From Promethearchaeia archaeon (GTDB taxonomy: Archaea > Asgardarchaeota > Lokiarchaeia > Sigyniarchaeales > SOKP01), in contig JAHQWP010000089.1 in NCBI GenBank assembly GCA_029856235.1, forward strand, positions 1 to 35,100: DNA of 35,100 nt. The letters are read 5' to 3'. Under the pieces are notes generated by a model. The model was given only the letters and a program-made list of their open reading frames with translations, was not told the DNA's origin and did no database searches. The position numbers and the translations under genes are program-made. Below, piece after piece: positions 16,509 to 33,870 of this stretch; position 1 is the first letter of the stretch; every line of letters starts with the position of its first letter.

Positions 16509-17042
16509 ATGATATGGGTAACTCGAGATTATGTCCATATTGATAGGGTAGCGAGCCCTTGGTTAATCAAAAGATTCGTAGATAAATGTGCTCAATTCGT
16601 TTTCCTGCCAAGAGATGAAATAACCGATTTTGTAGCGAATACGGGAGCAACTCCATTTGATACTGCTGGTACGGGAGTTGACCTTGACCACCATGTATGC
16701 AACGGTGAAAAGCATTGCACATTTGATGCCATCGTGGAAAAATACAAGCTTGAAAGCGACGAAGCGTTGCAAAAAGTAAGAAAACTCGTTAGAGCTGCCG
16801 ATACGGGAGGAATAGATGAAGAACCTCTCGCATGGGCTTTAGAACTCGTAGCAGTTGGAACTCCATTTTTAGTAGATTCAGATCACGAAGCATTGGAAAA
16901 GGAATTCCCAGTTTACGATGCTGTATACACGTATTTTAAACAACAAATAGTCCGTGAAAAATATAAGGCTGAAATAGAGAAAATAAAAACACGACCAGAA
17001 AGACATGCCTTCATTAAACAAAAACTAAATGAATCTCTATGA
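16509..17042 (+). CDS. ChrB-type (chromate resistance) C-terminal-domain protein
   Basis: WVTRDYVHIDRVASPWLIKRFVDKCAQFVFLP, DLDHHVCNGEKHCTFDAIVEKY, VRAADTGG. Confidence 0.85.
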   Translation: MIWVTRDYVHIDRVASPWLIKRFVDKCAQFVFLPRDEITDFVANTGATPFDTAGTGVDLDHHVCNGEKHCTFDAIVEKYKLESDEALQKVRKLVRAADTGGIDEEPLAWALELVAVGTPFLVDSDHEALEKEFPVYDAVYTYFKQQIVREKYKAEIEKIKTRPERHAFIKQKLNESL

Positions 17043-18259
17043 CCAATGAAATAGAAAATAAGAACGGTTTCAAAAACCTAAAAATAACCTCTTTTTTTAT
17101 CGTCAGTTTTATCGGATTTTTTGCGTTGTTTAGTTCTACAATGTCTAAAAGCCCAATTTTACCTCTCTTCGCAGAATCTTTAATTACTTCGGAATTTGAA
17201 ATGCAATTTATTGGTTATGTCATTGCGGCCTCTACAATTCCAGGAATTTTAGTTAGTATGATCGCTGGACGATTGTCAGACATGTATGGGCGAAGGAAAC
17301 TAATCCTCGTTTCGACTGTAATTTTTGCGAGCGCACCCATTTTTTATCTCTTTGCGATAAATATATGGATTTTGATGATAATTCGTTTTTATCACGGCTT
17401 TTCAACAGCTATTTTCGTTCCGGTTGCCATGGCAGCTATTGCTGAATCGTATCCTGAAAATAAGGGGAAGTTTATCTCAACTTTTTCTTCAATTACTCTC
17501 GTAGGACGCTTCTTGGCACCTATAACTGGAGGAGCAATTCTTTTTATCACATCTAATTATTACTATGGCGTCTACATTGGATGTGCGATTTCAGGAACTA
17601 TCGCTTTTATGCTAACAGTGATCATTTATCGAGATCGAATTTCCACATCTGAACTCAATCCAGAAACGAAAAAGCCTTCACTTACAATTAAAGAATTTGT
17701 GAGAGGATTTAAAGAAGTCCTAACTCATAAGATGATACTTTCAACCTCGATCGTTCAGGCCTGCCAATATTTTGCCTTCGGGATTATTGAAGCCTATGTA
17801 ATATTATTTGCTGACTTACTTCATTTTGATGCATGGTTGATTGGACTAATCCCGGCGATCCTAACTTTGATGCTTGTTGGGTTTAAACCCTTAATGGGAT
17901 ATTTTTCAGATAAGCTTGGCCGCCGCATAATTATTCTTGTAGGACTCCTCCTCGGGGGAGGCGTATCGTGGGTGATCCCATTTACATCTAATTATTTCTG
18001 CGTAATTTTGGTACTTTGTCTATTCGGAATCGGGATGGCCATGGTTGTATCTTCTACCGCGGCTTATGTATCAGACCTTTCTAAAAAAGAGGATTATGGG
18101 GCTGCGATTGGAACTCTAAGCACTATTATGGATATTGGACAGACCATCGGCCCTATCCTAAGTGGATATGTCTTAATAGCTTTTTCTTTTGGAGGAGTGT
18201 TTTTAATGGTTAGCATAGTCCTTTTTATCTCCGCAATTATATTTTACTTAATTAAGTAA
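17039..18259 (+). CDS. MFS transporter, translationally coupled to the ChrB-domain gene
   Basis: ATGA overlap with the upstream ORF; 12-TM MFS with AGRLSDMYGRRKLILV and GYFSDKLGRRIIILVG. Confidence 0.92.
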   Translation: MTNEIENKNGFKNLKITSFFIVSFIGFFALFSSTMSKSPILPLFAESLITSEFEMQFIGYVIAASTIPGILVSMIAGRLSDMYGRRKLILVSTVIFASAPIFYLFAINIWILMIIRFYHGFSTAIFVPVAMAAIAESYPENKGKFISTFSSITLVGRFLAPITGGAILFITSNYYYGVYIGCAISGTIAFMLTVIIYRDRISTSELNPETKKPSLTIKEFVRGFKEVLTHKMILSTSIVQACQYFAFGIIEAYVILFADLLHFDAWLIGLIPAILTLMLVGFKPLMGYFSDKLGRRIIILVGLLLGGGVSWVIPFTSNYFCVILVLCLFGIGMAMVVSSTAAYVSDLSKKEDYGAAIGTLSTIMDIGQTIGPILSGYVLIAFSFGGVFLMVSIVLFISAIIFYLIK

Positions 18260-21820: not shown

Positions 21821-22653
21821 TCAGCTTAGGTGTTCTTGGATAAAATTCCATATTATTCTATTGGTTTCTTTAGGGGCTTCAATGTTAAAGGCGTGACCTA
21901 CTCCGGGAATAATCTCCAATTTAGAATTCGGAATCTCTTCGTGCATAGATTGTATCTCCCCCGGTATTGACATTTTATCCTTTGATCCAGAAAGGATTAG
22001 CGTAGGTTGAATGATATCTTTTATTGAATCTCTCATATCAAAATTTTTTAAAGCTTCATTTTGGTTAATATAATCCTTATAGAGAGGAGGCTCTACTAAC
22101 TGAGAAAAAAAGTTCATGTCTTTGCTAATTTCATTAAAAAATTCTTTATCGCTCTCTAATCTTTTCTTAAACCCTCTGGAATAAATAAGGGGAAAATAAA
22201 ACATTACCCTTTGCTCTAAATCTAAGTCCTTCAATATATTAAATACGATAAGATTTTGATCGCTCGTTTTTGGGGGGTAATAAATAGTTGAAGCACACAA
22301 AATCAGAGTTTTGACCATCTTAGGATATTTCAGGGTAAATTTCTGAGAAATCTTGCGCCCATACTTGATCCACATAAGTGGATACCTTCCGTTATATTAA
22401 GATAATCAAGTAAATGTTTCAGATCTTCAAGAAAGATATCCATCGTATATGGATAGTCTGGACGAGAAGACTTCCCGGCTCCACGATTGTCTAACGCAAC
22501 TACCATCATTTTGTCTTTGAAAAAATCAATCTGATAATTCCACATTTGTAATTTCGTGAAGGTACCACTTACAAAGACTATTGGTTCTCCGCTTCCTTCT
22601 TTGATATAGTTTATTTCAATGTTGTTATACGAAAAACTAGGCATTAATTTCAC
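21821..22653 (-). pseudogene. Alpha/beta hydrolase split by a single-nucleotide frameshift near 22355-22365
   Basis: ORF 22330..22653 ends GIHLCGSSMGAR|FLRNLP*; overlapping ORF 21821..22375 resumes in another frame with (R)KISQKFTLKYPKMVKTLILCAS...SGSKDKMS...GVGHAFNIEAP. Confidence 0.85.
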
Positions 22654-27746: not shown

Positions 27747-28349
27747 TTAATTTTTTTTCCCAAAAATCCAATATTGATATTCTCCCCCTCGTTCTAAAAC
27801 AGCTTCTGAGATTATTGAGAATCCTGCTTTTTTCACGAGATCTAGAGTAGTTTTTGGGCTGAAATTACTCCAAAACATTGGAACACCGAAAAATCTACTA
27901 GTTCCTTCTGATTCTGAGACACCTGAATTTATCATTAGAATACCACCCGGTTTCAATATTTCAAAAAATTTCTTAAATACATCGAAATGGTTTTCCTTAG
28001 GAACGTGGAAGAGCGCAAATACGCTTATTATCCCATCAAAAGTGTTTTCGTTAAATTCTAATTTGAGCATGTCCATTTTAACGAATTTGGCACTTGGTAC
28101 ATTATCTCGAGCTAAATTTAACATTTTATCAGATAAATCAATGCCAGTTACCTTAATTCCTCTTTCTGTTAGGAATTTCGCAGTAGGAATGCCCGCACCG
28201 CATCCTACATCTAATGTATGAGCATTTTTGGGGAGTAAAGACGCAAATTCCTCTAACTCATTATTGAATTTGCTTAAATTCCGATGGCTATAATAATCTT
28301 CAGCGATTCTATTATAACCTTGCTCTACTAACTTAGTAATTGCATCCAT
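27747..28349 (-). CDS. SAM-dependent methyltransferase (class I)
   Basis: AHTLDVGCGAGIPTAKFLTERGIKVTGIDLSDKML; FDGIISVFALFHV. Confidence 0.92.
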   Translation of the reverse strand: MDAITKLVEQGYNRIAEDYYSHRNLSKFNNELEEFASLLPKNAHTLDVGCGAGIPTAKFLTERGIKVTGIDLSDKMLNLARDNVPSAKFVKMDMLKLEFNENTFDGIISVFALFHVPKENHFDVFKKFFEILKPGGILMINSGVSESEGTSRFFGVPMFWSNFSPKTTLDLVKKAGFSIISEAVLERGGEYQYWIFGKKN

Positions 28350-28459: not shown

Positions 28460-28924
28460 TTAACAATGAATTTCTTTAATTTGTCCAAAAGTCTCGGTTC
28501 TATCATATTTCTTGTTCTTAGATTGAAAATGCACGATAATCTGAGAATCTTCGATTTCGGGTATCTCCTCAATAAGTTTCTTATCACCATATGTAAATGC
28601 CTGAAGTACGAGTGGTAAGTGATAGCAAAAGATTCTGTCTCGTAATCCCGCCCAACCAAAACAAAAACCTCCACTAACATGCATGTAGACGTGTAATTCG
28701 TAATGATCGTTACTCTTTTGCCATTCAGCTAACACCTCGTCCCTCATGAAGCGTGTGTAAAGACTTGAAATTTGTTCAAAATCGTACTCTGAACCTATCG
28801 TAAGAAAAAGATCTCCAGTTGAATCAGAATGAGTTAATGTATATTTGCGAGGTAAATTTAGCGTGTATTTGTCAATAGAGTCTTTAAAAACGAGATGTAG
28901 TTTATTAGGATTAAAATCTGACAT
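28460..28924 (-). CDS. Staygreen (SGR / Mg-dechelatase) family protein
   Basis: FNPNKLHLVFK, PRKYTLTHSDSTGDLFLTIG, SSLYTRFMRDEVLAEW, LHVYMHVSGG, LPLVLQAFTYGD and IIVHFQS are diagnostic staygreen blocks in order. Confidence 0.9.
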   Translation of the reverse strand: MSDFNPNKLHLVFKDSIDKYTLNLPRKYTLTHSDSTGDLFLTIGSEYDFEQISSLYTRFMRDEVLAEWQKSNDHYELHVYMHVSGGFCFGWAGLRDRIFCYHLPLVLQAFTYGDKKLIEEIPEIEDSQIIVHFQSKNKKYDRTETFGQIKEIHC

Positions 28925-31820: not shown

Positions 31821-32279
31821 ATGAAATTTCCAGATATATCAGGTGAAAATTTAGAGAAAAAGAAATACAATATTCCATACGATCTCGAAGGTGAACTCAA
31901 TATAGTAATCGTACCTTTTCAGCGGTGGCATCAGAGCCTTGTAGATGAATGGAGTGCATTTTTAAACAATATTGAACGATCAAATCGTAATTTTCGATAT
32001 TATGAAGTTCCGACTTTAAACTCGGGATACAAAATCATGAGATTTATGATTGATGGAGGAATGAGAGCCGGGATTCCTGATAGAAGTGTAAGAGAGCGAA
32101 CAATTACGCTCTACACAAATAAACCCTTATTTGAAGAACTATTAAACATAAATTCTGAAGATACTATCTATTTGTTTTTAATACGGAGAAATGGCGAAAT
32201 TCTTTGGAGGAGCGAAGGAGAATACGACATTCAAAAAGGGGAAGAGCTCTTAAAAATAATAGAAAAGATAAATGCTTAA
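31821..32279 (+). CDS. Thioredoxin-fold-like conserved protein lacking CxxC
   Basis: MKFPDISGENLEKKKYNIPYDLEGELNIVIVPFQRWHQSLVDEW...IDGGMRAGIPDRSVRERTITLYTNK...LFLIRRNGEILWRSEG resembles AhpC/ATP10-like folds. Confidence 0.6.
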   Translation: MKFPDISGENLEKKKYNIPYDLEGELNIVIVPFQRWHQSLVDEWSAFLNNIERSNRNFRYYEVPTLNSGYKIMRFMIDGGMRAGIPDRSVRERTITLYTNKPLFEELLNINSEDTIYLFLIRRNGEILWRSEGEYDIQKGEELLKIIEKINA

Positions 32280-33063: not shown

Positions 33064-33870
33064 TTACGCTGGTTGTAATACTCCTGCGAATACTAACCAC
33101 GCTAAAAGAGTTTTAGACCACAAACTGAGTAGTATGTATCCTCGTTCTCCATGTAAATAATCCTTCCATTTCCCAACTTTTTTATATTGTAGGATCATAT
33201 TAATCGGGAATGTGTTAAAGAATACTACGTATGATCCGAAGATAGCCCACACAAACCATGGAATTTCGGCAATATTCCCGTTGCCAAATAGATATAATAG
33301 AATTACTATCCATGGAATAAGGCCTGCAAACGTTCCTATATAAAATGCTGTCCATTTCGTTTTCTCAGTCGTTTGGTTATGAAGTTCCATCATCAAACCT
33401 AAAAGATTCATCGTCGCGTTGATAGCAAAAATTAAAATTAAAGTGGAAAGATCGTAGACTCCGAAAAACCACGCAATTAATACTATCATCAAGGATGAAC
33501 TTAAACCGTATTCAAACCATCGAAAATAGTTAATCCCCTGACCCAATTTTTTATTATAGAAATCATTGACTTTAGGTAATACGATTAATAAATGAGCTAT
33601 AGCTGAGAGTAGTAAAAACATAGCAACCAGAGGACCAATAGGGACCGTCGTTAATTGAGTGTAATTAGGCAGCAGTCTTTGTAGTCCAACGTCATAATAA
33701 AGATAAGACGTTGTAATCGGTAACTCAAAATCCCTTATTTGAGGTATAGTATAAGACATGATTATCATTATACTGGCTTGGATTAAATGTAAAAATCCCA
33801 TAATTAAGTTGAATCGCCTTAAATAAGAGAAACTTATTTTAGATTCTGTTTTTTCATTCATAGAGTTCAC
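33064..33870 (-). CDS. Heliorhodopsin
   Basis: LRRFNLIMGFLHLIQASIM, FRWFEYGLSSSLMIVLIAWFFGVYDLSTLILIFAINATMNLLGLMME (Glu counter-ion position), IPWFVWAIFGSYVVFFNTFPINMILQY, YLHGERGYILLSLWSKTLLAWLVFAG (retinal Schiff-base Lys). Confidence 0.95.
   Translation of the reverse strand: MNSMNEKTESKISFSYLRRFNLIMGFLHLIQASIMIIMSYTIPQIRDFELPITTSYLYYDVGLQRLLPNYTQLTTVPIGPLVAMFLLLSAIAHLLIVLPKVNDFYNKKLGQGINYFRWFEYGLSSSLMIVLIAWFFGVYDLSTLILIFAINATMNLLGLMMELHNQTTEKTKWTAFYIGTFAGLIPWIVILLYLFGNGNIAEIPWFVWAIFGSYVVFFNTFPINMILQYKKVGKWKDYLHGERGYILLSLWSKTLLAWLVFAGVLQPA

Follow-up and report, generated by a model that had tools for sequence, protein, structure and literature searches.

What might a Staygreen (SGR) protein do in a Lokiarchaeon? 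The question is raised by a 154-aa open reading frame, at 28460..28924 on the minus strand of the DNA analysed here (the whole stretch of 35,100 nucleotides, hereafter the window), that matches a protein family including the Mg-dechelatases of plants and algae. Staygreen homologs in archaea have already been published, which makes the bare finding less surprising, and the physiological role of the bacterial homologs is given as unknown in the literature, as is that of the family in non-photosynthetic prokaryotes generally. Here, a repeated link between Asgard SGR genes and genes for heliorhodopsin and UV repair leads to a testable hypothesis on this role. The homolog itself is of a known type; it is the light-gene context that appears to be the new part.

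The window encodes a predicted Mg-dechelatase

The original prediction had named this frame a Staygreen homolog, with exact coordinates but no strand, and had suggested a search with the family profile. That search confirmed the assignment, returning PF12638 at E 2.2e-48 (score 164 bits, cut-off 27) over profile positions 2-146 of 147, and no match to the profile was obtained in 14 control genomes. A search of the PDB identified entry 7y5y, the assayed and crystallised Mg-dechelatase AbSGR-h of Anaerolineae bacterium SM23_63 (PMC8531759, PMC11006732), which is 52% identical over 148 residues (E 1.2e-48) with no gap in the alignment, so that the residue numbering is common to both proteins. His32, Asp34 and Asp62, which the prediction had named as functionally important, therefore carry the same numbers in AbSGR-h, and the choice of residues proved right, as the D34N and D62N variants of that enzyme are soluble but inactive and H32A is weak (PMC8531759). 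The residues R26, Y28, T29, T31, T36, R61, E63, R95 and D114 match as well. Altogether, 21 mutated or predicted cavity positions were compared with AbSGR-h, and all agree except E38D and W55L, which leaves 14 of the 16 predicted cavity residues equal to those of the chlorophyll-active enzyme.

The SGR fold of the window protein is near certain, a claim that rests on the gapless identity to 7y5y and not on the AlphaFold2 models, since two runs with shallow alignments reached a pLDDT of only 41 and about 50 (49.7 with nine sequences); 7y5y was nevertheless the one PDB entry that the latter model, itself weak, matched significantly (E 4.7e-11, TM 0.68). Plant-type SGR and SGRL proteins carry a plastid transit peptide and a C-terminal extension; both are absent here, the 154-aa frame being fully taken by the core domain (residues 4-151). 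The frame is open, and its dN/dS against five relatives (0.12-0.27) shows that the gene is under purifying selection. At the profile score given above, and with the control genomes empty, the family match is not due to chance. A scan for bacterial-type promoters around SGR gave no more matches than in shuffled sequence, although such models are bacterial and uninformative for archaea. Mg dechelation as the predicted chemistry of the protein is well supported by homology, and we infer the corresponding activity for the window protein.

Conservation of the fold might nevertheless conceal another function, if the real substrate were not chlorophyll but a different metal complex, or if the protein served as a partner of another protein, perhaps of heliorhodopsin. 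Plant SGR also recruits other enzymes. In support of this notion, SGR homologs are found on a phage contig and in bacteria, Clostridioides difficile among them, that do not obviously encounter chlorophyll, and homologs vary in activity and substrate range (PMC8531759). However, the three catalytic residues are invariant across 34 aligned homologs (32 Asgard and two Bacillota), in which the invariant columns include T31, H32, S33, D34, D62, E63 and R95, and the predicted cavity is, as described above, nearly that of the chlorophyll-active enzyme. Moreover, the C. difficile member is without the motif, so that its retention in Asgard archaea argues for the same chemistry. We thus consider a non-chlorophyll function distinctly unlikely.

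The C. difficile protein is encoded on a plasmid (L029, 3926-4378, NZ_CP149720.1) and has lost the conserved THSD motif; the Staygreen family thus probably includes members devoid of Mg-dechelatase activity. The phage-borne homolog shares about 40% identity with the window protein and is encoded near the genes for a terminase large subunit and a portal protein on a viral contig (L083, 4992-5444, IMGVR_UViG_3300033406_000373). This single IMG/VR contig was the only match in our phage search, with none in INPHARED.

SGR is an archaeal gene with a probable history of transfer

The archaeal host that had been proposed from the sequence was upheld: the nearest named records, from a single-query contig search that returned Lokiarchaeia only, are Lokiarchaeia metagenome-assembled genomes (68-92% protein identity). 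Within the phylum, SGR was found in 49 of 228 genomes, and we regard the gene as native. A contaminating bacterial contig, or a pseudogene in a metagenome-assembled genome, could be suspected from the host assembly, which comprises 226 contigs with an estimated contamination of 8.3%, and from a family whose other known members come mostly from plants and bacteria. This explanation is ruled out for practical purposes by the presence of SGR in single-contig genomes (G138, G072 and G214) and by a gene order that is kept across independent assemblies, including an 83-kb contig from a different species (G002); the two Ras-family GTPases encoded in the window and the selective constraint on the open frame likewise stand against it.

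In a tree of 52 sequences, few of them bacterial, the Anaerolineae SGR is nested among the Asgard sequences (support 96/78), and the genera g1 and g13 are intermixed. Transfer of SGR between Chloroflexota and Asgard archaea, as well as among Lokiarchaeia, is therefore likely on the basis of this tree. The single-contig Lokiarchaeal genome G138 carries two SGR copies (G138:C1 596973-597416 and 3184683-3185129), one of which has an in-frame stop close to its end.

The Mg-pigment most likely comes from outside the cell

The original prediction had also stated that the window lacks chlorophyll biosynthesis genes, which holds, and holds genome-wide for two markers, HemB (porphobilinogen synthase) and CobN/BchH. 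HemB was not detected in any of the 49 SGR-bearing Asgard genomes, and CobN/BchH was not detected in the window's genome. By comparison, HemB is present in 11 of 14 control genomes and in 14 Asgard genomes without SGR, and although the genomes are metagenome-assembled, incompleteness does not explain an absence from 49 of 49. De novo synthesis of a Mg-porphyrin by an SGR-bearing host is accordingly very unlikely, an endogenous substrate is disfavoured, and the Mg-pigment acted upon is most likely exogenous.

An external origin would also suit the salvage of tetrapyrroles, in which SGR would remove Mg from scavenged chlorophyll for reuse of the ring or side chain, the ring being re-metallated or degraded for carbon and nitrogen, and in which the linkage to light genes described below would reflect nothing but a shared niche in sunlit sediment. 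The lack of HemB in every SGR-bearing Asgard genome means that all ring tetrapyrroles are external, and chelatases of the CobN/BchH type remain in 11 of these genomes. However, SGR shows no association with CobN/BchH, which is found in 11 of 49 genomes with SGR and 31 of 179 without (odds ratio 1.4, P 0.41), and we know of no pathway by which pheophorbide would yield heme, corrin or F430. Salvage furthermore leaves the adjacency to heliorhodopsin, photolyase and peroxiredoxin unaccounted for, and we hold it to be unlikely. Across the phylum, CobN/BchH-type chelatases occur in 42 Asgard genomes, all but one without HemB, which suggests that Asgard chelatases act on salvaged tetrapyrroles.

In some Asgard genomes SGR lies beside heliorhodopsin and UV-repair genes

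The original prediction was silent on a heliorhodopsin gene in the window (268 aa, 33064..33870, minus strand; PF18761 E 1.8e-97; NCBIfam HeR E 1.2e-93, score 313 bits, cut-off 100), which has the same orientation as SGR and is located 4.1 kb upstream of it. Comparison with solved heliorhodopsins revealed that the retinal lysine is kept, aligned with the lysine of 6is6 in LSLxxK. Four genes separate SGR from heliorhodopsin, three of them on the opposite strand. An ATP10/thioredoxin-like protein (31821..32279, plus strand; PF05176 E 7.8e-8; cluster c13) is also encoded in the window and recurs near SGR in six loci from several families. Downstream of SGR, at a distance of 111 bp and on the same strand, a class I SAM-dependent methyltransferase of 200 aa is encoded (27747..28349, minus strand; Methyltransf_25 E 1.7e-22); in family f1, 17 of 27 loci have a methyltransferase gene as the next one after SGR, with a gap of 108-112 bp where measured.

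Neither this methyltransferase nor the SDR found upstream of SGR in many relatives could be given a specific identity. For the methyltransferase, every NCBIfam model, BchM included, scored far below its cut-off, and for the SDR, considered as a chlorophyll b reductase, the only model shown above cut-off was a general SDR subfamily; in this window, the SDR does not adjoin SGR. Elsewhere in the window, an alpha/beta-hydrolase-like protein (21821-22653, minus strand) is split into two overlapping frames, 21821-22375 and 22330-22653, by a frameshift or sequencing error, and the genes for a ChrB C-terminal domain protein and, next to it, an MFS transporter, which overlap by a few bases in this order (16509-18259, plus strand), are possibly a chromate-resistance type pair.

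The proximity of SGR to heliorhodopsin is not confined to the window. In 15 genomes from three families (f1, f15 and f17), heliorhodopsin and SGR are no more than 10.4 kb apart. The gene that directly precedes SGR in the same orientation is heliorhodopsin in G129 and G136 (f1) and in G066, G067 and G068 (f15), and in G147 the two are divergent neighbours. In f28 genomes, the two genes are on separate contigs or far apart. Photolyase is found within 4.6 kb of SGR in 11 genomes. In G007 it precedes SGR by 66 bp in the same orientation, in G157 it lies 34 bp downstream, and in G087 and G089 it adjoins SGR but is encoded on the opposite strand. The latter two genomes, which belong to one family, have a peroxiredoxin gene 26 bp upstream of SGR, with a fasciclin-domain gene beyond it, and four f15 genomes hold photolyase and UvdE in the same island as SGR and heliorhodopsin. 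Under generous assumptions, random placement would link SGR and heliorhodopsin in about 0.7% of cases per genome; the observed 15 of 36 corresponds to a binomial tail of 2e-23, or of 1e-4 when just four independent arrangements are counted.

Heliorhodopsin and UvdE are also about 3 kb or less apart in genomes that have SGR at another locus or lack it (G127:C126, G135:C69, G138:C1, G139:C115, G141:C50, G142:C502 and G111:C49).

SGR and light-related genes co-occur across the phylum

Presence and absence were compared by Fisher test between the 49 Asgard genomes with SGR and the 179 without. Heliorhodopsin was present in 36 and 24 of these, respectively (odds ratio 17.9, P 1.5e-15), UvdE (E below 1e-10) in 20 and 12 (odds ratio 9.6, P 4e-8), and photolyase in 22 and 26 (odds ratio 4.8, P 2e-5). 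As Asgard genomes are related, these P values overstate independence, a concern that is lessened, not removed, by two contrasts. CobN/BchH, an unrelated control family of similar frequency, showed no association (see above), and within the window's genus heliorhodopsin was found in 9/9 genomes with SGR against 2/15 without (P 4e-5), or 8/8 against 1/5 among genomes at least 90% complete (P 0.007). Six SGR-bearing genomes have none of heliorhodopsin, photolyase and UvdE. In the window's own genome, there is no photolyase match, and the UvdE matches are only partial and on other contigs. Co-occurrence of this kind could be explained by a light-exposed habitat without any shared pathway, an explanation that accounts less easily for adjacency. 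The joint occurrence of SGR with genes for light sensing and UV repair suggests that it helps the cell to handle light and scavenged pigments.

A possible role in the disposal of photosensitising pigments

The explanation that we favour, and regard as probable by a modest measure, is that the Asgard SGR is a Mg-dechelatase of scavenged chlorophyll pigments that works within a response to light and photo-oxidative stress. By homology, the enzyme would release Mg2+ from the centre of a chlorophyll-type pigment and let two protons take its place, with Asp34 coordinating the Mg2+ and having its charge tuned by His32 and Asp62. Its substrate would be chlorophyll, chlorophyllide or related Mg-chlorins acquired from dead phototrophs. 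Heliorhodopsin would sense light, photolyase and UvdE would mend UV damage, peroxiredoxin would clear peroxide, and SGR would initiate the removal of photosensitising pigments, the whole response being carried by Asgard lineages that live where light meets pigment debris. What the analysis shows is homology, a conserved active site, purifying selection, linkage and co-occurrence, and the lack of HemB and, in the window's genome, of CobN/BchH; what the enzyme acts on, its service in photoprotection, where its hosts live and whether heliorhodopsin controls it are inferred. Since Mg-free chlorins, pheophytin included, are still photosensitisers, dechelation alone would not detoxify; no pathway step after dechelation was found, the methyltransferase and SDR beside SGR being generic.

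Other heliorhodopsins bind or regulate photolyase and glutamine synthetase. By analogy, heliorhodopsin in Asgard archaea may even bind or regulate the neighbouring Staygreen Mg-dechelatase, in which case light would switch the removal of photosensitising chlorophyll pigments in a non-photosynthetic lineage, an extension that we put forward as tentative and doubtful. Lokiarchaea are relatives of the archaeal ancestor of eukaryotes. A pigment-disposing role for SGR would show that the taming of chlorophyll, seen as a eukaryotic or plastid problem, has a counterpart among archaea of the eukaryote-ancestor lineage.

Comparison with known systems

The bacterial relative AbSGR-h strips Mg from chlorophyll a, chlorophyllide a, protochlorophyllide and chlorophylls b and c, by a mechanism proposed to involve Asp34, His32 and Asp62 (PMC11006732). 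The window protein shares its catalytic trio, its numbering and most of its cavity, and in the tree AbSGR-h clusters with part of the Asgard sequences; the window protein differs in its archaeal host, the E38D and W55L cavity substitutions and the heliorhodopsin neighbourhood. With the SGR/SGRL Mg-dechelatases of plants and algae it has the Pfam family and core motifs in common, and aspartates equivalent to D34 and D62 are required in Arabidopsis SGRL too (PMC8531759). Unlike those enzymes, the window protein is only 154 aa long and resides in a host without chlorophyll-protein complexes, and its pigment most likely comes from outside.

Heliorhodopsin operons offer a second comparison, as heliorhodopsin is known beside genes for partner enzymes and transporters, namely photolyase, glutamine synthetase and an ABC transporter (PMC9769723, PMC11109279, PMC8612252). 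The Asgard loci follow this pattern of heliorhodopsin beside an enzyme gene, with photolyase and peroxiredoxin among the partners in both. Staygreen is not among the ten heliorhodopsin partner groups of PMC11109279, and the word is absent from the main text of that paper and of PMC8612252; SGR would thus be a partner beyond those listed there. Finally, chlorophyll is established in microbial eukaryotes as a phototoxin that needs catabolic defusing, and algae-eating protists convert it to non-photosensitive cyclopheophorbide enols, products without Mg (PMC6775998). This protist route, in which Mg is likewise lost, forms a parallel to the role proposed here for the Asgard SGR.
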